DNA from: Candidatus Gastranaerophilales bacterium
Lineage (GTDB): Bacteria; Cyanobacteriota; Vampirovibrionia; Gastranaerophilales; Gastranaerophilaceae
Reading direction: 5' to 3'
Assembly: GCA_944326635.1 (NCBI GenBank)
Contig: CALVEU010000009.1
Span: 1 to 32,039 of the forward strand
DNA: 32,039 nt
Positions 1,532 to 23,847 of this stretch are shown piece after piece. The translations under genes and the position numbers were made by a program. The notes under the pieces are model-generated. The model made no database searches. It had not been told where the DNA came from and saw nothing but the letters and a program-made list of their open reading frames with translations. Numbering within the stretch: the stretch's first letter is position 1; each line of letters starts with the position of its first letter.

Positions 1532-1843
1532 ATGAAAAAGAAAATAGGACAACTATTTAACAATCTTTGCTGTTCACAATGCAAAAATAGTTTTGACGAA
1601 AATTCAATAACCATAAAAAGAGAAGAAGAAGGCTTAACAGTAATAAGTCTTGAATGTCAGCACTGCGGCAAAAACTTCGGTGTCGCATTTTTAGGCTTCA
1701 CAGATTTTGATATAAATACATATGAACCATTGGAAGTCCAAGAAGGACCTGACCCAATTAATTACGATGATGTAATTGATGCCCATAGATTCATACAAAA
1801 TCTTGATGCTGACTGGCAAAAACATTTACCAAAATCTAACTAA
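1532..1843 (+). CDS. Small zinc-ribbon protein, conserved hypothetical
   Basis: The product is 103 residues. I place the start at the ATG at 1532, which has AGAGG five to six bases upstream. The same frame is open back to an ATG at 1430, but that extension has no ribosome-binding site and crosses the promoter region. Four or five cysteines form a ribbon: CCSQC near residues 13-17 and CQHC near residues 42-45, separated by a short beta-rich stretch, followed by an acidic C-terminal part (EVQEGPDPINYDD). Two CxxC knuckles like these bind one zinc ion and suggest a nucleic-acid or protein-binding role. No specific function is recognised. The gene converges on the transporter gene, and their stop codons overlap. 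Confidence 0.7.
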   Translation: MKKKIGQLFNNLCCSQCKNSFDENSITIKREEEGLTVISLECQHCGKNFGVAFLGFTDFDINTYEPLEVQEGPDPINYDDVIDAHRFIQNLDADWQKHLPKSN

Positions 1844-3120
1844 TTAAACAATACCCCCGCAATTGCTGCTGACATATAACAAGTTAAAGTTCCGCAAATC
1901 AAAGCTCTAACCCCAAGTCTTGCAAGATTTTTACGCTGATTAGGAGCAAGTTCCCCAATACCACCTAATTGAATAGCAATAGATCCAAAGTTTCCAAAAC
2001 TACATAATGCAAAACTTGCAATTAAAAATGCTTTATCGGAAAGAGCAGTTGGTAAATGTGTCATATCAAAATATGCAACCATTTCATTTAAAACTAATTT
2101 AGTCCCCATCAAACTACCAACAGTTGTAGCCTCTTTCAAAGGAACCCCCATAAAATAAGCAAATACAGCAAAGATTTTACCCAAAATCATCTTCAATGAA
2201 AGATGATTCAAATCAAAAGAGGCAAAATTTATATGCAAATATTTAACAATTAATACTCCTAAATGTCCCAATGCCCAATCAATCATTGCAACTAATGCAA
2301 CTAAAGCCAAAATCATTGCAACAACATTTATAGCAACTTTCATACCTTCAGAAGCTCCTGCTGAAATTGCATCAAATACATTTATATAAGGTTTTCTTCT
2401 TTTGCTGTAAGTAATTTTTATATCTTCACTAGTTTCTGGAGTTCCAGTCTCAGGATATACAATTTTTGTAATAACAAGAGCACCCGGAGCTGCCATAATT
2501 GATGCAGCCAAAAGATATTGAGCAGGAATTCCCATACCAATATAAATAGGCATTGTAGCCCCGGAAATACAAGCCATGCTACCAGCCATTGATGCTAATA
2601 ACTCAGATCTTGTTAATTTTGCAAGATAAGGTCTAATCATAATTTGAGCAGCTATTTGTCCTACAAAAGCACTTGCAACATTTGATAAAGCCTCTGCTCC
2701 ACTTACACCCATTAATTTATTCATAGCTTTACCAAAAAGAGGAACTACACGTTGCATAATTCCATAGTAATAAAGCATATTTACTAAAATCATCATAAAT
2801 ATTAAAGATGCAATTAACTGTAATGCAAATACTTGAGCACCTTCTCCAAATACAGCAGTAATTTTATGTTCTGTCATTAATGGGCCAAATACAAATGATC
2901 CACCCTCTTTTGCAAACTCAAGAATTTTTTGGATAAACAAACCTAAATTATAAAATAATGCTCGACCGATTGGAACTTTAAAAATAAATAAAGCCAATAC
3001 AACTTGTAATAAAAAGCCCATACCAACCGTTTTATAATTAATAGCCTTTCTGTTATTAGACATTAAATAAGCTATCCCAAAAATTAAAATTATTCCCAAT
3101 AATCCAAAAAATCTATCCAT
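1840..3120 (-). CDS. nupC: Concentrative nucleoside transporter, NupC/CNT family
   Basis: A 426-residue inner-membrane protein that should import nucleosides by cation symport. It starts MDRFFGLLGIILIFGIAYLM and shows the CNT pattern: an N-terminal helix set, then the gating and transport regions. These include GAEALSNVASAFVGQ, GSMACISGATMPIYIGMG, and the C-terminal SFGNFGSIAIQLGGIGELAP with RKNLARLGVRALICGT. The length is typical for bacterial NupC. The stop (TAG, 1840-1842) overlaps the stop of the convergent zinc-ribbon gene, so there is no room for a separate terminator. Family assignment is firm; the preferred nucleoside and coupling ion cannot be read from sequence by eye. Confidence 0.92.
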   Translation of the reverse strand: MDRFFGLLGIILIFGIAYLMSNNRKAINYKTVGMGFLLQVVLALFIFKVPIGRALFYNLGLFIQKILEFAKEGGSFVFGPLMTEHKITAVFGEGAQVFALQLIASLIFMMILVNMLYYYGIMQRVVPLFGKAMNKLMGVSGAEALSNVASAFVGQIAAQIMIRPYLAKLTRSELLASMAGSMACISGATMPIYIGMGIPAQYLLAASIMAAPGALVITKIVYPETGTPETSEDIKITYSKRRKPYINVFDAISAGASEGMKVAINVVAMILALVALVAMIDWALGHLGVLIVKYLHINFASFDLNHLSLKMILGKIFAVFAYFMGVPLKEATTVGSLMGTKLVLNEMVAYFDMTHLPTALSDKAFLIASFALCSFGNFGSIAIQLGGIGELAPNQRKNLARLGVRALICGTLTCYMSAAIAGVLFN

Positions 3121-3335: not shown

Positions 3336-6300
3336 ATGCGTGTAAATTCAATTATGCCACAAATGAGGGCAACAAGTATCAAAAGAAATGACAATGTTAA
3401 TTCTAGCAATCAAACCATGCCTGTTGCTATGAATTTAACTGCTCCAATTGTAAAATCAGGAGTTATCTTAACTTTCACAGGGAATGATAGTAAAAACATT
3501 CATCAATTCCTATCATATGCTCCAGAAAACAAAAGATTTGGAGTAAAAGCCTACAATCTTGGAGGTTTAGGCGTAGTTGCCCAAGAAGCACCAGCAAGTT
3601 GGAGAACTAAAGCTGGCGCAGACGTAAGAGATTTTGCACCATATCACAGTTTTAATAACCCTGATGGCGGAGTAACCATTGTTAAAATCACTAAAAATGA
3701 AAAAGGTATTTATAATGACCGTTATCCAGCAGAAAGTTTTATCTCTGCAAAACAAGATGAAACATTAGAAGAAGTAGGCAAAAGAGTAAAACTAAAAGAA
3801 GGAGAAAGACTAGCTTATGCTATCAGATTACAGCCTGATGATAAGGGAATATCCCAAATTATAAGATTAGAAGATACAGGCGTTCAAGGATCATTCAAAA
3901 GAGCTGCTAACAAAAGTATAGCAGATACACAAGATGTAACCTATAGACTCTTCAGAGCTGTAGATATTGCTGATACTGTTGATATACCAATTAACGATTA
4001 CAAGAAGAAAGTTCTTGCAAAAATAACAAAAACGATTAAAGACGAAATAGCAGCTCCAATTAATGAAAAATATAAAGAAGATTTAGCAAAAGCAAAAGAA
4101 AAAGATTTCCAACTTACTTTAAAAGCAAGAGACTTATATGATGCCAAAAAGTCAACAGATGGAGAAAGATTTTATCCTATACATGATAATGAAATAGAAA
4201 TACAATCAAAAATTAATGATGAAATTGAAAAGAATTTCAATACAGAAGAAATAAAAAAAAGAATTGATACAGCATACAATGAAAAAATAAATTCAGAAGA
4301 AGTAAAAAAAGAATTAGAAACAATAAAATCCAAAATAATAGCAGCTCCAGAAGTACCGGAAAGAAATGCTGCATACTTTATTCACACAAAAGACCTAGCA
4401 AAATTTGATACAGCATACGGTTCTGGGGATAAAGGATACAGTGCATATGGTGCATATGGAACAAGCGGATCATTCCCTTCTGGGAATAACCCAACAGAAA
4501 CAAAACATCTTGTAAGTACAAATGTTGCTTATGCTGATAACAATAGAGCATTAATCGAAATAATGCCTAAATTAAATACAAAAGAACACGGTTTTTATAA
4601 TCCTGCAAACTGGTGGTTACATGATAGACCTGCATTTATTACAATGAATGCCATTGCAGACGCTTCCCATTTTGGAAATACATATTACAATGGATTAAAA
4701 GTACATGGTACATTCCATAACCCGGGAAGAGATTACCAAGGTGCAGAAAGCAATCCATTTGAATTTTTCAAAATGGTTGCAAGACCTGAAGACATAGAAA
4801 CATTAAAAAAACATTCTCAATTTGAAAAATTAAAGAAAATAGAATCTAAATGGGCTGGAAATTGGCAAAATGCACCTTTATCTGAGAGAAATTTTGCAAA
4901 TCAAATTTTAAGACCATTTATGGCAAATTTCTTAGATGACTATGTTGATACTGCAAATGATGTAAGAACATTTAATATTTCTATGACTCCTATTGCAGGA
5001 ACTAATGTTAACTCTATGAACATGAGTGGTGGTACTGTTTCAGTCAATTACGGAAAAGAAATGAAATCACTGGAAACTCCTGATATTGCTCAATTCTTAA
5101 CAACCAAATTAGCTGCGACAAAAACCATTGATATTACAAATGGTAGTACGCCTGCAAACTTGAGATTAAACGATCCTACAGCTACATTCTGCCAAGGGAA
5201 TAATATTAATGGATTAACAGAATTAAAAGAAGGTTTTACAACATACGAATACAAACCTGTATTCGATAAAACTGAGAAACTAGTATCTGATAACATTGAT
5301 GAAGTTTTAAAAGCAAAAAAATCAAACACTAAATGGTTATTAGATTCATTAGGAGATGCTTTTGACAAAGGTGGTTCTCAAGGTATTACCAAAATGTTTT
5401 TTACCGATAAACAGGTATCAGAAAATAATGCCAGCATAATTGGACATCTATCAAAATACGAAGATGGTGATATGTTATTTATGGGCTGGGGAAGACCAGA
5501 CCCACAAAAGGGATATCCTTCAACATTCCAAGCATTTCTTGACTTCTTAAAAGACCCTAAAATTGATTCAGAAGTAAAAAAACACACCAAACTATTAGTT
5601 GGTGCCGGAGTATGGGAAAATGATGCTAGAGATTACACTTGGGTACAAGATATCATTAGACAAATTGGCGAACTTGATGGTGGAATATACAAGGGTAATG
5701 CTTGTTATGTAAATGGCTTCTTCCCGAATAGACTTGTTGGTTGTGCAACTTATACAATCTTTTCATCAAGATTTGAACCTTGCGGAATTACACCACTAGA
5801 ATCTTTCGCATCAGGTACACCTGTAATATCTACAAAAACAGGCGGAGCTCCTGACTTTATAACAGAGACAAGAGGCTACTTAACTAAAAATCCATACTTA
5901 AGAAGTGCTGAAAATTTAAAAATTGATCCAGCAAAACTTGCAGGTAAAAAAGCTGAAGAAATTGGGAATATAATTGATGCAGAAAGAATGTTCGCTAATG
6001 CAAGTGAACTTAAAGAATGTATTATTGCAGCAACTTCGGATTATAACCTAAAACCTGAAGAAGGGAAATTAACAAAATATGCTGAAATGGTAAAAGATGC
6101 CATTACTCAAAAAATAGATTGGCATGAGAATGCTGCTTATAACGGAGGGAAAACCGCAAATGAGCGCTATATGACTGAAGTTTTTGAAGTTGATAAAGGT
6201 ATAGAAGGAAGAAACTTTGAAAAACTAAAACGTTTAGTAGGAGAATTCGGTATTGCAGTAGAAGATGGCGCTAAGAAATTAAGAAACAAATGGACTAAAA

Positions 6301-6521
6301 CAATTATTGGTACAGGAGTTGCAGTTGCAGCACTAGGAACTGCAGCATATGCATATATGAAACGAAATGACAAAAAAGCTCAAACTACTAATACTACAAC
6401 ACCCCAGACAAGTACAACTCCTGTTATAAATATAAAACAAGAAAATAATATGACAAATCCTGTTTCTACAAACAAAGATGCAAAAAATGAAACAATAAAC
6501 AAAATAAATAAAACTGTTTAG
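3336..6521 (+). CDS. Giant GT5 glycogen/starch-synthase-like glycosyltransferase with a membrane-tail extension
   Basis: This 1061-residue protein is about twice the usual glycogen synthase length (near 480). The GT5 fold is split. An N-terminal nucleotide-sugar loop, LGGLG, lies at residues 75-79. A lysine/glutamate-rich, probably coiled-coil insert covers about 215-340. An acceptor-site region, GTFHNPGRDYQG, includes His461. The second Rossmann domain has GRPDPQKG with Arg720 and Lys725 (same spacing as R300/K305 of the E. coli enzyme) and SRFEPCGITPLESFASGTP with Glu814. The lysine of the KxGG motif is Asn74 here. A hydrophobic segment, TIIGTGVAVAALGTAAYAYM, lies at about 989-1008, followed by a Thr/Asn-rich tail. 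I infer an alpha-glucan synthase activity, possibly membrane- or granule-tethered. Substrate use is uncertain because of the changed KxGG. There are no glgB, glgC or glgP neighbours. Confidence 0.8.
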   Translation: MRVNSIMPQMRATSIKRNDNVNSSNQTMPVAMNLTAPIVKSGVILTFTGNDSKNIHQFLSYAPENKRFGVKAYNLGGLGVVAQEAPASWRTKAGADVRDFAPYHSFNNPDGGVTIVKITKNEKGIYNDRYPAESFISAKQDETLEEVGKRVKLKEGERLAYAIRLQPDDKGISQIIRLEDTGVQGSFKRAANKSIADTQDVTYRLFRAVDIADTVDIPINDYKKKVLAKITKTIKDEIAAPINEKYKEDLAKAKEKDFQLTLKARDLYDAKKSTDGERFYPIHDNEIEIQSKINDEIEKNFNTEEIKKRIDTAYNEKINSEEVKKELETIKSKIIAAPEVPERNAAYFIHTKDLAKFDTAYGSGDKGYSAYGAYGTSGSFPSGNNPTETKHLVSTNVAYADNNRALIEIMPKLNTKEHGFYNPANWWLHDRPAFITMNAIADASHFGNTYYNGLKVHGTFHNPGRDYQGAESNPFEFFKMVARPEDIETLKKHSQFEKLKKIESKWAGNWQNAPLSERNFANQILRPFMANFLDDYVDTANDVRTFNISMTPIAGTNVNSMNMSGGTVSVNYGKEMKSLETPDIAQFLTTKLAATKTIDITNGSTPANLRLNDPTATFCQGNNINGLTELKEGFTTYEYKPVFDKTEKLVSDNIDEVLKAKKSNTKWLLDSLGDAFDKGGSQGITKMFFTDKQVSENNASIIGHLSKYEDGDMLFMGWGRPDPQKGYPSTFQAFLDFLKDPKIDSEVKKHTKLLVGAGVWENDARDYTWVQDIIRQIGELDGGIYKGNACYVNGFFPNRLVGCATYTIFSSRFEPCGITPLESFASGTPVISTKTGGAPDFITETRGYLTKNPYLRSAENLKIDPAKLAGKKAEEIGNIIDAERMFANASELKECIIAATSDYNLKPEEGKLTKYAEMVKDAITQKIDWHENAAYNGGKTANERYMTEVFEVDKGIEGRNFEKLKRLVGEFGIAVEDGAKKLRNKWTKTIIGTGVAVAALGTAAYAYMKRNDKKAQTTNTTTPQTSTTPVINIKQENNMTNPVSTNKDAKNETINKINKTV

Positions 6522-7420
6522 TTTTTATTTAATAAATCAATTAAATCATAAATTACGATGAATCTGTCAATCAGATCATCGTAATTTTTTGCGTTCAACA
6601 ATGATTTAAATAAAAAACCAAATTGCATAGGTCTTTTTTGCCTAATCGCAATTAAAACAACATTATTTTTATATGATAATTCAAATCCTTTAGCAGTATA
6701 AATTTCTCCAAATTTTCTTATTATACTCCAAAATTCTTCATTAATAAAAGCAATATTTTTAGAATCTTTTGCAAAAACATAAAGGTATTGATTTAATTCT
6801 TGAATATTAGGATTAACTTGTTTAAAGGAATTACACTTATGTTCATTCTTTGAAAAAAGAATAACATGGTTATTTATAGATCTATCCAATTCTAATTGAA
6901 TTATTGTACCTTTAAATAAATTAGGTTTATTAACACCTTTTACAGGCATTGTCAAATTAGTACTTGAAAAAATTATATTAGTTCTGTTATAAAAGCCAAA
7001 GAAACTAGCATCATCTTCTTGAGTATCAAAATTATAAAAAAGCTGAGATTCTAATATAGTTTCAGTATTATAATTTTTAGGCCAAGGTTTGAAGTTAGCA
7101 ACAGGTTTTAAAAATAAAGGAAATACATCTTCCAATAATCTTTCTTGATATTTTTTCCCTACTAAAATAAAATTTATAATACTTTTTATAAAAAAAACAT
7201 ACATAAAAAACAAAATAATAGGAAATAAAATTGGATTAAATTTATCATTTAGCATTACATAGATAAATAAGAATGCAAAACCAGCTGCGATTATAAAAAA
7301 GAATAAAGATGAAAATATTAAATTTTTAATTAATTTTAATCTATATTTTTCTATTTCATAGATATTTGGCAAAATCTTTTCTTGAAAATATTTATAATAT
7401 AATTCTTTTTTATCATCCAT
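6518..7420 (-). CDS. DUF3137-like membrane protein
   Basis: A 300-residue protein with a short charged N-terminus, two adjacent transmembrane helices (about 34-57 and 62-86), then a soluble domain. That domain carries the DUF3137-type pattern of LESQLF followed by an acidic stretch and FFGFYNRTNIIFSSTNL. The function of this family is unknown; members are usually anchored proteins with the large domain in the cytoplasm. The start is the ATG at 7420. There is no Shine-Dalgarno sequence, and an extended -10 element ends 7 nt upstream, so the message may be leaderless. The stop overlaps that of the convergent GT5 gene. Confidence 0.7.
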   Translation of the reverse strand: MDDKKELYYKYFQEKILPNIYEIEKYRLKLIKNLIFSSLFFFIIAAGFAFLFIYVMLNDKFNPILFPIILFFMYVFFIKSIINFILVGKKYQERLLEDVFPLFLKPVANFKPWPKNYNTETILESQLFYNFDTQEDDASFFGFYNRTNIIFSSTNLTMPVKGVNKPNLFKGTIIQLELDRSINNHVILFSKNEHKCNSFKQVNPNIQELNQYLYVFAKDSKNIAFINEEFWSIIRKFGEIYTAKGFELSYKNNVVLIAIRQKRPMQFGFLFKSLLNAKNYDDLIDRFIVIYDLIDLLNKN

Positions 7421-8667: not shown

Positions 8668-9447
8668 ATGACTAATTTAATAGATAGTTATAAGAAAGTT
8701 TATGAAAATAAAAAAGCTCATATTAGTCTAATTATTCTATCAATAATATGGACTTTAATGTCTACAATTTGGGATATTAAAACTGGCGACATAAACAACT
8801 ACAGACAAAATCCTTTTGATATATTATTTAATATTATTATTGGAGGATATAGCATTAAATTTCTACACAACTGTATTAACAATATTGATAATGGAATACT
8901 TCCAAAATTTAAAGGAACACCTTGGATTATGTATTTAGGGATGATTCAATTAAATATAGTTTGGGGCATATATGCTCTTATTTTTATAGTTTTCGCATTT
9001 TTGCTATATATAATAACTCACATTTTCTTCTTTCCAATTTTACTTGTAATTTTATTATTATTTATTGCAATGTTCATATACTACATTTTCCTTGCCTTTG
9101 CTGATAATTTAGATACAAAAGGACTTTTTAATATTAAATTGATATTCAATTTAATTCCACACACAATTAAACCTCTATATAAAAATTTCATATTTTTTCT
9201 ATTATTTAATTTATTAATTGCTATAATTTATATACTTTTATACACTGTGGCTGGATTATTTGGAATAGATTCAATGATAAATATCAAAGACGATATTTAC
9301 CTTATAGATATAGTAATGAGCACTATCGCTGGATACTTTGTTATAGTAACTTGGTATTTCGCATTTCCATATTCATTAATAGATTCCTACAAAGAACATG
9401 CCAAAGCTATTTTAAGAAAGGATGAAAATAATGGCACAAATGTTTAA
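8668..9447 (+). CDS. Polytopic membrane protein, first of three related genes
   Basis: A 259-residue protein with five to six hydrophobic segments. A short amphipathic N-terminus (MTNLIDSYKKVYENKKAHIS) precedes the first helix. The sequence GGYSIKFLHNCINNIDNGILPKF, of the GY...LP.F style, and the closing region resemble DUF4013-type membrane proteins, though I cannot confirm that family. It shares the motif DTKGLFNI and overall layout with the third gene of the operon (DSKGLFNI), so the genes look like diverged duplicates. The start is supported by AAGGAG 6 nt upstream and a strong promoter. Its end overlaps the next gene by 17 nt, implying coupled translation. Function unknown. Confidence 0.75.
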   Translation: MTNLIDSYKKVYENKKAHISLIILSIIWTLMSTIWDIKTGDINNYRQNPFDILFNIIIGGYSIKFLHNCINNIDNGILPKFKGTPWIMYLGMIQLNIVWGIYALIFIVFAFLLYIITHIFFFPILLVILLLFIAMFIYYIFLAFADNLDTKGLFNIKLIFNLIPHTIKPLYKNFIFFLLFNLLIAIIYILLYTVAGLFGIDSMINIKDDIYLIDIVMSTIAGYFVIVTWYFAFPYSLIDSYKEHAKAILRKDENNGTNV

Positions 9448-10177
9448 TGGGTTAAAAAAATTATATACTGAAGAAAAAGCATTTGAAAGACAACTCTCAT
9501 TATTTTCTATTTGTGGTATTGCTGGACTTATAACAGGTTACATAGCTTTAGCAAATCAAGGATATATTGAAATTACAAGTATCCAAAAAATATTCTTTAC
9601 AATACTATTAATTATTTTTGGGCTGTTTTTTATTGGATATGAAACATTATTTATGCATACAAGAACAATTCCAGATATTGGAATCGATTCATTTAAAATA
9701 GCAATAAAAAAAATACCATTCATTATATTTTTAGTTGGAATCCCTGTATTAATAACAAGCTTATACACCAAATATCAATATTCTGCATTTTGCATTGAAA
9801 TGTTTCTCTCAATACCACTTACAATGTTACAAGCAGGATTTTCTTACAATTATGAAAATAATGATTATCATTTACTGTTTAATAAATTTAAGATTAAAGA
9901 TATTTTCTTTTTATTAATAAAAAGATTATGGATTGTTATTATAACTTACATAACAACTTACTTTTTAATTTTTATAATATTTTTTATTATTGGACTCATT
10001 TCTGCTTTCTATTACAAAGGAGATATTAATGCAATGAGTATGGCTATCTCCTCTCAACAAGTTACAATTGCAAAACTATCAAATTACATTGCTAGTATCT
10101 TATATACTTACATTATATCAATAGGAATACTTGTATGGGATTATGAACTTTTAAAAACTTATGAAAGAGAGGAATAA
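9431..10177 (+). CDS. Polytopic membrane protein, second of three related genes
   Basis: I choose the ATG at 9431 (MAQMFNGLKKLYTEEKAFER, 248 residues) because AAAGG at 9417-9421 is well spaced from it. An in-frame ATG at 9422 touches that ribosome-binding site and is less likely. The N-terminal pattern GLKKLYTEEKAF mirrors the first and third genes (SYKKVYENKKAH, GFKKVYSGKNVL). Five or six transmembrane helices follow. It is the most diverged of the three and lacks the KGLFNI motif. It overlaps both neighbours (17 nt and 1 nt), so the three products are probably made together and may form one hetero-oligomeric membrane complex. That last point is inference. Confidence 0.72.
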   Translation: MAQMFNGLKKLYTEEKAFERQLSLFSICGIAGLITGYIALANQGYIEITSIQKIFFTILLIIFGLFFIGYETLFMHTRTIPDIGIDSFKIAIKKIPFIIFLVGIPVLITSLYTKYQYSAFCIEMFLSIPLTMLQAGFSYNYENNDYHLLFNKFKIKDIFFLLIKRLWIVIITYITTYFLIFIIFFIIGLISAFYYKGDINAMSMAISSQQVTIAKLSNYIASILYTYIISIGILVWDYELLKTYEREE

Positions 10178-10950
10178 TGAACGTTATTGACCTAATGATT
10201 GACGGATTTAAAAAAGTATATTCTGGGAAAAATGTACTATCCAAGCACATTTTTATGCTTATAATAATAGCAATTTTATCAATTGCCACTGTAAATGTTC
10301 AAATAATGGCAGACACAATAGAAAAAACAAAAGAATTACCAAATATCTGGCAATTATTGGTATGCATGATAATCACATTAATAGCAGGCATCTATACTGG
10401 AGGATATAATTTACTATTTTCTCATAATGCTTTCAATCAAGAAAACAAAGATATTTTACCAGAAATAAATTTAACCCCTTTCAAAGTATTTTTTAAAACA
10501 TTACCATTAATGATAGTATGGTCATTGTATATATTAGTTACACTATTCTTTTCAATGGCTTTAATTTCGAGCAAATCACTATTAACAATTTTAGGAATAT
10601 TTATATTTATATTTTTATTATTTGTATATGCCTTTATTAATTTTGTCTATATAGCATACATTAAAAACTTTGATTCAAAAGGATTATTCAATATTATGTT
10701 ACTGGCAAAATACATAAAGTACTCTTTTTCAGACTTTGTTCTGCTTGGGCTTCTTTTTATCCCGGTATATGGAGTCGCAATGACACCAAGCTTTATAGTT
10801 GGTTTATTATTTGGACTTATGGGAGCAAAAACGATGACAGCACTATACGCTGGAGGAATACTTGGTGGATATTTAGGATTTATTGTTCAAATAGTATGGT
10901 ACTATTCTCTTGTTCAGATTTATAAAAATAAAATAGAACCCAACTTATAA
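10177..10950 (+). CDS. Polytopic membrane protein, third of three related genes
   Basis: A 257-residue protein starting MNVIDLMIDGFKKVYSGKNV. The start overlaps the previous stop as TAATG, with GAGAGG upstream. It has about six transmembrane segments, a GGYNLLFSHNAFNQ turn followed by DILPEINLTPFK, and DSKGLFNIMLLAKYI, shared with the first gene. The layout again recalls DUF4013-like proteins. A strong hairpin terminator follows directly at 10949-10977. No enzymatic motif is visible. Roles in transport, envelope assembly or protein insertion are possible but not shown. Confidence 0.75.
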   Translation: MNVIDLMIDGFKKVYSGKNVLSKHIFMLIIIAILSIATVNVQIMADTIEKTKELPNIWQLLVCMIITLIAGIYTGGYNLLFSHNAFNQENKDILPEINLTPFKVFFKTLPLMIVWSLYILVTLFFSMALISSKSLLTILGIFIFIFLLFVYAFINFVYIAYIKNFDSKGLFNIMLLAKYIKYSFSDFVLLGLLFIPVYGVAMTPSFIVGLLFGLMGAKTMTALYAGGILGGYLGFIVQIVWYYSLVQIYKNKIEPNL

Positions 10951-10977
10951 AAAGAGCCTTTAAAAGGCTCTTTTTTA
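10949..10977. terminator. Bidirectional intrinsic terminator
   Basis: The stem AAAAAGAGCC...GGCTCTTTTTT encloses a TTTTAAAA loop and inner stem, with a T run on one strand and an A run on the other. It ends the membrane protein operon (+) and overlaps the stop of the convergent prepilin gene A (-). Confidence 0.9.
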
Positions 10978-11723
10978 ATACGTCATTTCCCAATTTTCAT
11001 TTAATATTTTTCCAAAACAGCCATGTCCCCAAGTAGGTCTTGAAGAATTACAAGCTCTTTGGAAATTATCTTCTCTGGTTTCTTTATCTAACGGAGCAGG
11101 AACCACCTCAGTTTGAGAATTCGAACCACTAGGATCTCCATCTAACACACTATAATCGTCAATTACCCCATTTTGGTAAAGATACATTCCAAAAAAATCT
11201 CTTCCTACTACATTGGGACCTTGCTTACCATTAACATCAACCATCATTGATAAAACAATAAAAGAATTGTCATTTGAAACAGAATCAACTGCAACAGAAG
11301 CACCACTAGCTAATACAAATGTATTTATATTGTCTTGAGGACCGCTAAATGGATAAGTAGTACCATCCAACTTTTTATATACAGAAACAGGAAAACAAGG
11401 CGAAACATCATGCCCACAATCTTGGACAACCTTAAAATATGTTTTTACAAAATTTGCTGCAGCATCTTGGGTTGCGAAACCAGCTTCTTTTAAATTCACA
11501 GCATTTCTATCTGTCTGATATTGTAATGCCGCTTGTTGAAATTCATTATATACTTTATGCAACTGAGTAACATAAGATTTTCTTTGGTAATTCTGCATTA
11601 AAGATGGAACGGTTATTGCTGACACTACACCAATTATTCCTAATGTTACCAATACTTCTGCTAACGTAAATGCTGGAGCTGAGCCTAGATTACGCCCCCC
11701 CCCCGATTTTCAAATCTTTTCAT
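10975..11723 (-). CDS. Prepilin-like protein A, interrupted by an out-of-frame C:G tract
   Basis: The body encodes a type IV pilin/pseudopilin-like protein. Its N-methylation helix AFTLAEVLVTLGIIGVVSA is followed by VPSLMQNYQRKSYVTQL, then a globular domain with NGKQGPNVVGRDFFG and a C-terminal Cys pair (RACNSS, HGCFGK). The expected start is the ATG at 11723, with AAAGGAG 6 nt upstream. That frame reads MKRFENRGGG, then VI and a stop, because a 10-nt C:G tract (11695-11704) puts the body out of frame. Lengths 8 or 11 would join them and give the leader MKRFENRGGGRNLGSAPA. In the body frame a TGA lies just upstream of the tract and no start codon precedes the cleavage motif; only an internal TTG at 11652 would begin it. 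The residue before the cleavage point is Ala, not Gly. Phase-OFF allele or slippage-dependent gene; a sequencing slip is the alternative. Confidence 0.85.
11695..11704. repeat. Homopolymeric C10/G10 tract in prepilin gene A
   Basis: Ten consecutive C on the plus strand (G on the coding strand), 18 nt after the A of the start codon is reached plus one base, flanked on the coding strand by C before and CGTAATCTA after. In-frame lengths are 8, 11 and so on. Length 10 ends at TAG within three codons, and length 9 would end at TAA within two. Confidence 0.95.
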
Positions 11724-15236: not shown

Positions 15237-15970
15237 CTAAAACCTTAACGGATAATCTTTAGATACACTCCAACCATCATACTGAATTAATGCCCCACAA
15301 TCAGCAGGTTTTTCTTTACAATGTTCGAGAAGATAAGATCTACTTTTTGTTGATAATTTACCTTCTTCATTTATAAATTGAAGAGGTACATAGACTGAAG
15401 GACTTCCTAATTTCATTCTAAAGAGAAATTGATCCCTACCTGCAATATTAGGTTTAGCAGAACAATTATAATCATACCAACCATGAATATTAACATTTGC
15501 TGGACCTGTACCTCCCGTTAAAATACCAAAACAAGATCCATCAGAAAAAACATATCTTGAATAATTTAAACCATTTGTAGAGATATCTGCATCTACAGTT
15601 ATATCAATACATTCTTTAGTACTACATTTCTTTATTCCTTTCATATATTGAAAAAAATAATTATTAAAAAATTCGTCATTATCCTTAAAAGCTTGATCAG
15701 TTCCAATACTCTGAGACGCAAAATTCCAAGTAGAGAAATCCCCATTTTCTGCCTGCGAAATTTGAAGAGCGTTCATAAAAGTTGAATAGAATTTTTTTAA
15801 TCTTACCTCAACAACTTTTTTCTTATGATTTGCAATTAATGTAGGAATAGTCAAAGCTGCAACAACACCAATAATACCTAAAGTAATTAATACTTCAGCG
15901 AGAGTAAATGCTTTGTAGGAGCTTAAATTACGCCCCCCCCCCGCATTTTAAAAATACAAGATTTTTTCAT
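15237..15970 (-). CDS. Prepilin-like protein B, interrupted by an out-of-frame C:G tract
   Basis: The body carries the prepilin helix AFTLAEVLITLGIIGVVAA, then LTIPTLIANHKKKVVEVRL and a globular domain with NCSAKPNIAGRDQF. The C-terminal disulphide motif is EHCKEKPADCGALIQYDGW, followed by DYP. ATG at 15970 with AAAGGAG 6 nt upstream reads MKKSCIFKMRGGGVI and stops, because the tract at 15933-15942 is 10 nt long. Eleven or eight would give the leader MKKSCIFKMRGGGRNLSSYK plus A before the cleavage point. A TAA blocks the body frame upstream of the tract, and no ATG, GTG or TTG lies between tract and motif. It therefore depends on tract length or slippage. Genes A and B share 5' sequence (AAGAAAGGAGC and C-G10-CGTAAT), so they are probably duplicates. 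Confidence 0.85.
15933..15942. repeat. Homopolymeric C10/G10 tract in prepilin gene B
   Basis: Ten C on the plus strand, located 28 nt from the start codon on the coding strand, between start and cleavage motif. Flanks on the coding strand are ATGC before and CGTAATTTAAGC after. Off-frame reading ends at TAA in both wrong frames within four codons of the tract. Confidence 0.95.
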
Positions 15971-17977: not shown

Positions 17978-18652
17978 TTGTCTAAATTAACAGAAAAACA
18001 TCATTATAAAGGAACACTTATTTGTGTAGAAGGGATTGACGGTTCTGGCAAATCTACACAATTAGCACTTTTGAGAGATTGGTTAAAATCTATCGGACAA
18101 GATGTAATTTTTACTGAGTGGAATTCTTCTGAATTAATTAGCCAAACAACTAGACTTGCGAAGAAAAAAAATATGTTATCACCTAGAACATTTTCCCTTT
18201 TACATGCAGTTGACTTTGCGGATAGACTAAAACAAGTTATTGACCCTGCATTGAAAGCTGGATTTATCGTACTTGCAGACAGATATGCTTATACAGCATT
18301 TGCAAGAGATGTAGCAAGGGGCGTTGATCCAAATTGGGTAAGAAATGTATACAGCTTTGCTATAAAACCTGATTTAGCAATATATTTTGATATTGATCCA
18401 AAACATTCTATGGAAAGAATTTGTGCAAATCGAGCTCCAAAATTTTATGAAGCAGGTATGGATTTAAAATTAAGTAATGACCCTTATGAAAGTTATATGA
18501 TATTCCAAGGAAGAGTAATAAAAGAATATCAAAAAATGGTAGATGAATTTGGTCTAATAAGACTTGATGCAATGGATTCAATACATTCAAAACAAGTCGC
18601 AATAAGAGAAATGTTAAAAGAAGTTCTAGCAAACAAAGGAGTAAACTTATAA
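17978..18652 (+). CDS. Thymidylate-kinase-like protein 1
   Basis: 224 residues of the P-loop NMP kinase fold. Walker A is GIDGSGKST (19-27) with EG before it, and the base/phosphate motif DRYAYTA is at 101-107 (DRY as in dTMP kinases). The canonical REPGGT stretch is replaced by TEWNSS (46-51). The start is TTG at 17978, supported by AAGGAG 7-11 nt upstream and by the conserved N-terminal YKGTLICVEG. It probably phosphorylates dTMP to dTDP, but the changed REPG region and the paralogue next door make the substrate uncertain. Its stop overlaps the second gene's start (TAATG). Confidence 0.85.
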   Translation: MSKLTEKHHYKGTLICVEGIDGSGKSTQLALLRDWLKSIGQDVIFTEWNSSELISQTTRLAKKKNMLSPRTFSLLHAVDFADRLKQVIDPALKAGFIVLADRYAYTAFARDVARGVDPNWVRNVYSFAIKPDLAIYFDIDPKHSMERICANRAPKFYEAGMDLKLSNDPYESYMIFQGRVIKEYQKMVDEFGLIRLDAMDSIHSKQVAIREMLKEVLANKGVNL

Positions 18653-19323
18653 TGGCACAATTTAAAACAAAACACGGATATGAAGGTTTGCTTATTGTAA
18701 TTGAAGGAACTGATGGATCAGGCAAATCCACTCAATTGGAATTATTAAAAAAATCTATCCAAGCTCAATCATATGGAGTTATGGTATCTGAATGGAAAAC
18801 TTCAAGATTGATTGCAGGAGTAATTGATGATGCAAAAGAAAGAAACCTTTTGAATGCTACAACATACAGCCTTTTATATGCAGCAGATTTTGCAGACAGA
18901 TTAGAAAACCAAATTATACCAGCTCTAAAATCTGGTTTTATTGTACTATTAGACAGATATTACTACACTGCATTAGCTAGAGATGTTGTAAGAGGTCAAG
19001 ATATTGAATGGGTTAAAAATTTATACGACTACGCTCCTGAACCTGATTTGATATTCTATCTTGATATGCCTGTTGATGTCCTATTAAAAAGAATTATTGG
19101 AACTACAGGTCTTAACTATTATGAAAGCGGTAGAGATGTCGGTTTCTCAACAGACTTCTACAAAAGTTTTGAAATTTACCAAAATAAATGCTTAGAACAA
19201 TATGAAAAAATGAAGTCTGAATATAATTTCAAAAGTATTGACGGTACAAAATCTATAGAAAAAATCCATTCCATAATGAACAAAGAAGTTCAAAAAATTT
19301 TAGATTCTGGTGTTTTATATTAA
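18652..19323 (+). CDS. Thymidylate-kinase-like protein 2 (tandem paralogue)
   Basis: 223 residues that align without gaps to the preceding gene over the first 120 residues, with roughly half the positions identical by eye. Walker A GTDGSGKST is at 19-27, SEWKTS at 46-51 in place of REPGGT, and DRYYYTA at 101-107. The catalytic features are intact in both copies, so neither looks decayed. The start ATG overlaps the upstream stop by one base, with AAAGGAG upstream, so the copies are translationally coupled. They may form a heterodimer, or one may have moved to a different nucleotide. A clean terminator follows. Confidence 0.83.
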   Translation: MAQFKTKHGYEGLLIVIEGTDGSGKSTQLELLKKSIQAQSYGVMVSEWKTSRLIAGVIDDAKERNLLNATTYSLLYAADFADRLENQIIPALKSGFIVLLDRYYYTALARDVVRGQDIEWVKNLYDYAPEPDLIFYLDMPVDVLLKRIIGTTGLNYYESGRDVGFSTDFYKSFEIYQNKCLEQYEKMKSEYNFKSIDGTKSIEKIHSIMNKEVQKILDSGVLY

Positions 19324-23127: not shown

Positions 23128-23847
23128 TTGAAAAATGTTTATTCAAGAAGCTTTGAGAGTGCCCCCCCCCCGCAAAACATAGATTATTCTAAGGGCTTCA
23201 CGCTTGCGGAAGTTTTAATAACTTTAGGGATTATTGGAATTGTTGCATCAATGACAATGCCTACATTAATTCAAAATTACCAAAAGAAAGAAGCTGCAAT
23301 AAGACTAGAACAAGCATACTCTATTATTTCTCAAGCAGTTAAAATGTCTGAATTAGCAAATGGTCCAATTGAATATTGGGAAATAAGTAAAACTAACGAT
23401 TCTGGAGATACAACTACAACCAAAAATTTTGTCGAACATTATATAACACCATACATAAAAAATATAAATTCGATACAAATGAAAACATCTGGAATGCCAT
23501 ATGAATATTATTATTACACAAGAAATGGGAAACTTGTAACAGGAGGAGGTCATACTCATTATAGTTTAGCTCTTGTAAATGGAATTTACTTACATTTTAA
23601 TGCCACATATGAATCATCAAACAAAATCGGTATAAGAATAGATACTAACGGAGAAAAAAGACCTAATATTATAGGTAGAGATACGTTTTTTGCAACAATA
23701 TATCCCAAATTTGAATTATATGGAACAGGAATGACCAGAAATCAATTGTTTAATCTGTGCAAAAAAGAGGATTATAATTCTCAAAAAAACTGTAGTGGAT
23801 TAATACAGGCTGACGGTTGGGAAATAAAAAAAGATTATCCTTGGTAA
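23128..23847 (+). CDS. Prepilin-like protein C with two competing starts and a C:G tract
   Basis: The body holds a canonical prepilin site, SKG before FTLAEVLITLGIIGIVAS, then NYQKKEAAIRLEQAYSIISQ, a globular domain with NGEKRPNIIGRDTF, and a C-terminal NLCKKEDYNSQKNCSGLIQ motif, then ADGW and DYPW. The ATG at 23135 has GGAGG exactly 7 nt upstream, but its frame reads MFIQEALRVPPPRKT and stops, because the C tract at 23162-23171 is 10 nt long. At 11 or 8 it would join the body. At length 10 the body frame is open only to a TTG at 23128, which touches the GGAGG and so should initiate poorly. The TTG reading, MKNVYSRSFESAPPPQNIDY, is nevertheless a plausible leader. A terminator follows. Confidence 0.87.
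   Translation: MKNVYSRSFESAPPPQNIDYSKGFTLAEVLITLGIIGIVASMTMPTLIQNYQKKEAAIRLEQAYSIISQAVKMSELANGPIEYWEISKTNDSGDTTTTKNFVEHYITPYIKNINSIQMKTSGMPYEYYYYTRNGKLVTGGGHTHYSLALVNGIYLHFNATYESSNKIGIRIDTNGEKRPNIIGRDTFFATIYPKFELYGTGMTRNQLFNLCKKEDYNSQKNCSGLIQADGWEIKKDYPW
23162..23171. repeat. Homopolymeric C10 tract in prepilin gene C
   Basis: Ten C on the coding (plus) strand, 27 nt from the ATG at 23135, before the cleavage motif. Unlike genes A and B, the coding strand carries C rather than G, so it encodes proline instead of glycine. The window plus strand carries C in all three loci, each flanked by G on both sides. Confidence 0.95.

Follow-up and report, generated by a model that had tools for sequence, protein, structure and literature searches.

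A predicted membrane-anchored, GT5-derived protein at a conserved locus of the Gastranaerophilales

The CNT–DUF3137 locus and the distribution of the gene

The window, i.e. the whole 32,039 nt stretch of DNA that was analysed, comes from a Candidatus Gastranaerophilales bacterium (assembly GCA_944326635.1, contig CALVEU010000009.1) and contains, at positions 3336–6521 of the forward strand, an open frame that starts with ATG and encodes a putative membrane-anchored GT5-like glycosyltransferase of 1061 aa. The gene for this protein, here called P0001, is present in a single copy in the genome. It is flanked by a divergently oriented gene for a Na+-dependent nucleoside (CNT) transporter (1840–3120, reverse strand) and by a convergent gene for a DUF3137 protein (6518–7420, reverse strand), the end of which overlaps that of the P0001 gene; both conserved neighbours were recognized by profile match and synteny. 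Throughout the genus, where 30 of the 32 other genomes possess it, the gene sits between these two neighbours even when protein identity has fallen to approximately 33 %, and the CNT gene also adjoins many family members in other genera. Recent import of the gene is ruled out by this genus-wide synteny. Profile matches of the neighbours confirmed the statement of the first-pass annotation that no glycogen genes lie next to P0001 in the window.

Downstream of the DUF3137 gene, several relatives carry genes for a UDP-glucose/GDP-mannose dehydrogenase, an NAD epimerase, a GT2 enzyme and methyltransferases, together with large proteins lacking a Pfam family. The window has prfB at this position instead, and none of the sugar genes is a constant companion of the P0001 family; the arrangement nevertheless hints that the DUF3137 side forms the border to a variable glycan locus. 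Further along the window lie three adjacent proteins of 251–259 aa (8668–10950) that contain hydrophobic stretches and match neither a Pfam nor an NCBIfam family, scattered prepilin-like proteins with starts of the TLAEVLITLGIIGIV type (10975–11652, 15237–15854 and 23128–23847), a type that recurs in relatives, and two adjacent ORFs (17978–18652 and 18652–19323) that begin alike (EGxDGSGKSTQ) and look like a tandem pair of thymidylate-kinase-like genes.

A profile built from 22 family members found the gene in 67 of the 146 genomes of the order, and a wider one built from 23 diverse members gave matches in 126 of 146 (119 of the 136 good genomes), the matching frames being mostly of 750–1190 residues and the weakest matches including canonical GlgA. 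Outside the order, within the same taxonomic class, weak partial matches came from three genomes only, and on these profile searches the family appears to be limited to the Gastranaerophilales. The dN/dS ratio was 0.11–0.16 in five pairs, which argues for a retained function; with the frame also open in relatives, a pseudogene or frameshift artefact is ruled out. Nucleotide identity between the P0001 region and that of its nearest relative, L040, is 91–100 % up to approximately position 4400 (99–100 % just before it) and 78–88 % from there to 7436, where homology stops and gene content differs. The break lies inside the gene, right behind the segment encoding a charged insert, and this sharp drop in identity makes it likely that recombination within the P0001 gene has joined two lineages.

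Kinship with glycogen synthases and the donor-binding residues

Curated profiles catch only the C-terminal Rossmann part of P0001: PF00534 matches residues 804–853, i.e. approximately 50 residues, with 36.5 bits (E value 4e-9, cut-off 26.4), and the score against the GlgA profile TIGR02095 is 27.8 bits compared with a curated cut-off of 328. The protein itself is too divergent to be matched by PF08323, and a direct comparison of the P0001 family profile with the GlgA of the same genome aligned just 46 residues, so that intermediate homologues were required to establish the relationship. Ten homologues linked through the family profile were compared with PF08323, and eight pass, with 29–81 bits against a cut-off of 22.7 (e.g. 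L102, 81; L089, 67; L104, 51; L091, 40; L107, 36). The kinship with GT5 proposed in the first-pass annotation is therefore sustained by these bridging homologues, and the catalytic positions can be mapped onto the genome's own GlgA. We class P0001 as a GT5-derived protein and not as a canonical GT5 enzyme.

The canonical enzyme is present as well. The second, ordinary glgA that the first-pass annotation had suggested looking for lies on another contig (C50:8008–9441; 487.5 bits with TIGR02095), and the genome also contains glgC (C60, 492.6 bits) and a short phosphorylase (C75), with no match to the branching enzyme type described by TIGR01515. Of 39 genomes, 34, this one included, contain a canonical glgA that passes its curated cut-off, and we therefore regard the long protein as an addition to GlgA rather than its substitute. 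P0001 is indeed approximately double-sized, being 2.2 times the length of its own GlgA (478 aa), although the cause is a set of lineage-specific inserts and tails and not a second domain; a duplicated GT domain is ruled out by the alignment, which consists of one core plus these inserts and tails.

Structure prediction with AlphaFold2 gave poor models, with a pLDDT of 54.7 and a pTM of 0.47 for the full protein and of 58.9 and 0.48 for residues 42–972, and the core is unreliable because the underlying alignment held only 12 homologues. Foldseek with the first, full-length model returned mostly GT-B retaining enzymes, all at E ≥ 0.04. When the weak trimmed model was compared by VIA-align, the GT5 starch synthases 6gnf (Z 9.5, 309 residues aligned, rmsd 12.8) and 4hln (Z 9.0, 317 residues aligned, rmsd 10.3) came first and second, these granule-bound or soluble enzymes matching over both domains, and glycogen phosphorylases followed with Z 8–9. 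The latter belong to the same GT-B superfamily (GT35), yet P0001 has no family match to glycogen phosphorylase (PF00343). These matches of a weak model agree with a GT5 origin and are no proof of it.

Alignment with MAFFT of 69 family members and the genome's own GlgA (70 rows) placed the donor and catalytic positions in the same order in both proteins. Ahead of them lies an FxG motif, LTFTGN (residues 45–50; 3468–3485), in which F47 is invariant in a 23-row superfamily alignment. The KxGG loop reads N74-L-G-G-L-G (3555–3572), N74 corresponding to K15 of GlgA and G76-G77 to G17-G18, and the H429-D430-R431 stretch (4620–4628) is the equivalent of N-D-W in GlgA, with D430 corresponding to D140. 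The GT5 His-Asn motif is H461-N462 (4716–4721; H170-N171 in GlgA), N602-G603 (5139–5144) corresponds to N254-G255, and GWGRPDPQK (residues 717–725; 5484–5510) provides R720 and K725, equivalent to R308 and K313, with GT5 spacing. There follow an EX7E motif, E814-PCGITPL-E822 (5775–5801), in which E814 corresponds to E384, and DWHEN (residues 928–932; 6117–6131), in which W929 corresponds to W464. The alignment thus bears out the catalytic marks that the first-pass annotation had read, H461, R720/K725 and E814, and the spacing that it had noted for the R720/K725 pair. The roles of the second lysine (K725) and of the glutamate (E814) are taken to be those of their GlgA equivalents. Equivalents of the Lys, Gly, Asp, His, Asn and Arg residues touch ADP-glucose in the Agrobacterium glycogen synthase (PMC2576272, Table 1), and His-Asn is a strictly conserved motif of GT5 (PMC6086201).

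Among the mapped donor and catalytic positions of P0001, the first lysine alone has been lost. H461, N462, N602, R720 and K725 are invariant in all 69 family members, D430 and E814 are each kept in 62 of 69, and the second glutamate of EX7E, E822, is likewise invariant (69/69), GlgA of the same genome having Ile there. Starch and glycogen synthases strictly retain the KxGG motif (PMC2576272), unlike P0001, and the first-pass annotation was right that asparagine (Asn74) occupies the lysine position. The emphasis that it put on this replacement is not supported. K-x-GG is present in 17 of the 69 family members, among them a syntenic orthologue in P0001's own genus (L033 of G018, which has KCGG). 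A GlgA-rooted tree from which these columns had been omitted requires at least five changes at the lysine position; the GlgA outgroup and several deep groups have Lys. We infer that lysine is ancestral and that its loss has been recurrent; given this, and its presence in relatives, the loss is no longer a defining trait. Homologues with the lysine in place, which the first-pass annotation had named as evidence against its reading, thus exist for part of the family, and they leave the GT5 assignment unaffected.

Two further patterns were seen at these positions. In a lysine-keeping clade of seven members (L033–L036, L135, L136 and L147), the donor Asp equivalent to D430 is replaced by Cys, and the clade of P0001 has the reverse pattern, lysine lost and Asp kept; L089–L094 and similar deep members retain both, and no member lacks both. 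Such a pattern is a lead without a statistic, since it concerns a single clade. In a deep subclade (L095, L097, L098, L100, L101, L104 and L105), Ala stands at Glu814 and Glu at Gly817, so that APCEL replaces EPCGL, and members of this subclade are possibly inactive or of altered chemistry.

These losses bear on whether P0001 is an enzyme at all. If transfer activity had been lost, the protein could serve at the membrane as a GT5-like, non-catalytic scaffold through which the synthesis of glucan or of the envelope is organized or regulated, as might be expected from the repeated loss of the KxGG lysine, the loss of E814 in one deep subclade, the very fast divergence and the large inserts. All other donor and catalytic positions are, however, kept in the clade of P0001, for which a scaffold would have no need, and purifying selection on the core is strong (dN/dS of approximately 0.1 or less), so that we consider a scaffold unlikely. 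We consider catalytic activity of P0001 rather likely. The family evidently tolerates loss of canonical residues, the lysine being gone and one deep subclade also lacking E814, and we propose that the KxGG lysine is dispensable because it is only one among several donor contacts.

Predicted membrane anchor, inserts and terminal segments

Close to its C terminus P0001 carries a hydrophobic helix with basic flanks (residues 989–1008; 6300–6359), which peaks at residues 990–1008 with a mean hydropathy of 1.51, is rich in Gly and Ala and recurs near the C terminus in nearly all C-anchored relatives. P0001 thereby has the predicted make-up of a single-helix C-anchored membrane protein. Comparison of P0001 with L040 gave dN/dS values of approximately 0.1 or less for the core, 0.08 for the helix and 0.64 for the tail behind it, rough figures given the short stretches. 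One anchor is carried by nearly every family member, none being seen in a few (L089/L090, L096 and L102/L103). The hydrophobic C-terminal helix described in the first-pass annotation is therefore a recurrent feature, and its suggestion of a membrane-bound protein is strengthened by family-wide conservation of the anchor. Insertion of the helix into the membrane is likely, and not certain, given its Gly/Ala-rich composition and modest hydropathy. That P0001 is a GT5-derived GT-B protein with a predicted membrane anchor we regard as very probable.

A second kind of protein with a predicted tether occupies the same site. In G006, from the same genus, a different GT5-like protein of 931 residues lies between CNT and DUF3137, with a PF08323 score of 67 bits, an intact KxGG and a hydrophobic helix at residues 42–60, i.e. 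at the opposite end. This N-anchored kind adjoins CNT in 13 further sampled genomes; His, Asn, Arg, Lys and Glu are retained in 24 of 24 of its members and the KxGG lysine in 20 of 24. In a joint quick tree with some long branches, 26 C-anchored or related members are united in a starred clade that excludes the N-anchored members; the latter group with the unanchored L096 and L102. The simplest reading of these sequences is that two tethered GT5 clades have replaced one another in place at the CNT–DUF3137 locus, and that tethering was kept while the protein was swapped.

The anchor also bears on a possible role in glycogen storage. P0001 might be a granule-associated isoform, its helix and tails binding the glycogen particle or a partner rather than the membrane and its core elongating storage glycogen; the genome does have glgA, glgC and a phosphorylase, a granule-bound starch synthase ranks first among the structural matches and the hydrophobicity of the helix is only moderate. 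Yet the helix, of approximately 19–20 residues with basic flanks, is as expected of a membrane tether, and the opposite-end helix of the N-anchored clade fits a tether and not a glucan-binding patch, so that we think this role improbable. Starch synthases, unlike P0001, are not known to carry a membrane helix.

The remaining length is made up of inserts and terminal segments. The N-terminal segment (residues 1–41; 3336–3458) starts with a conserved MRVNSIMP followed by a variable N/S-rich linker, in keeping with the family pattern of MR[VI]xS[VI]MP, variable linker and [IL][TS]FxG. The long charged insert that the first-pass annotation had placed at about residues 215–340 (3978–4355) was recovered in the alignment, though it is restricted to the subclade of P0001, and is helix-rich in the AlphaFold2 model. 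It is followed by a Gly/Tyr/Ser-rich loop (residues ~358–385; 4407–4490), which becomes (YGT)n repeats in L019, L020, L022 and L045, and the anchor helix by a variable T/N/Q/P-rich tail (6360–6500). This loop or the Thr-rich tail could take the first glucoses, as in glycogenin, making P0001 a self-glucosylating, membrane-bound primer that nucleates a glucan; residues of suitable kind are present in the Gly/Tyr/Ser loop, the (YGT)n repeats of relatives and the Thr/Asn-rich tail. Since most of the family lacks the repeat loop, and since the tail shows little conservation (dN/dS 0.64) and, if the helix spans the membrane, would end up on the opposite side from the active site, we consider such priming very unlikely.

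Behind the variable tail the extreme C terminus is kept, reading KINKTV in P0001 (6501–6518) and KLDKAA, KIDKVA, KINKVA, EINKVA or LLNRAV in relatives. This motif resembles no sorting signal known to us, had no match among the 394 ORFs of G018:C11:1–400000 and is possibly a proteolysis tag. The N-terminal [IL][ST]FxG stretch also occurs in unrelated proteins of the lineage (G018:C11, L049–L068 and L109–L128; L150; L153). In G018, [ILVM][ST]FxG within residues 4–70 was found in 10 of 683 ORFs, where 1.9 would be expected (p 3e-5, a generous value since several patterns were tried), and the joint pattern of an M[KR][IV] start with FxG was not enriched (7 against 4.2 expected, p 0.12). The stretch is possibly a lineage-specific N-terminal tag.

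A proposed role apart from glycogen storage

Bacterial GT5 enzymes are familiar as soluble proteins that synthesize storage glycogen. P0001 shares with GlgA (CAZy GT5; TIGR02095, PF08323 plus PF00534) a predicted two-domain GT-B core and, in order, equivalents of the GG loop, Asp, His-Asn, Asn, Arg/Lys and Glu, and differs from it in the lost KxGG lysine, the second Glu of EX7E, the long insert and tails and the predicted membrane helix, while coexisting with the canonical enzyme. Our working hypothesis, which we think probably correct, is that P0001 is an active, membrane-tethered, GT5-type retaining glycosyltransferase special to the Gastranaerophilales and distinct from glycogen storage. 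The helix would sit in the inner membrane as a tether, with the core, a predicted two-domain GT-B unit bearing the GT5 donor and catalytic residues save the KxGG lysine, facing the cytoplasm, where nucleotide-glucose is made. There the core would transfer glucose, probably from ADP- or UDP-glucose, to an acceptor that may be a membrane-held alpha-glucan or another glycan or glycoconjugate; acceptor and product are both guesses, and an envelope or membrane glucan is offered only tentatively as the product. Storage glycogen would be left to the soluble GlgA of the same genome.

The fungal alpha-1,3-glucan synthase Ags1p likewise has a glycogen/starch-synthase-like domain tied to the membrane (PMC5753165). 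Ags1p has extracellular and multitransmembrane domains, whereas P0001 has one helix only, and the likeness drawn here is one of arrangement. No description of a tethered GT5 protein such as P0001 was found in the literature searched, in which subscription journals were thinly covered; the GT5 kind itself is known, and what is new is an order-wide GT5-derived protein with a single predicted membrane tether. A bolder reading, to which we give limited credence, is that this is an undescribed, order-wide tethered GT5 class, in which two clades tethered at opposite ends swap at a conserved locus, selection keeping the membrane placement and not the protein, and whose product is a glucan, of the envelope or membrane-bound, that differs from storage glycogen.

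Most genomes of this gut order of non-photosynthetic cyanobacterial relatives keep an additional, predicted tethered GT5 protein, seemingly exchanged at the same site. If active, these proteins would provide natural examples of enzymes that dispense with the KxGG lysine, for which a part in donor binding has long been discussed, and would imply an as yet unknown membrane or surface glucan in uncultured residents of the gut.
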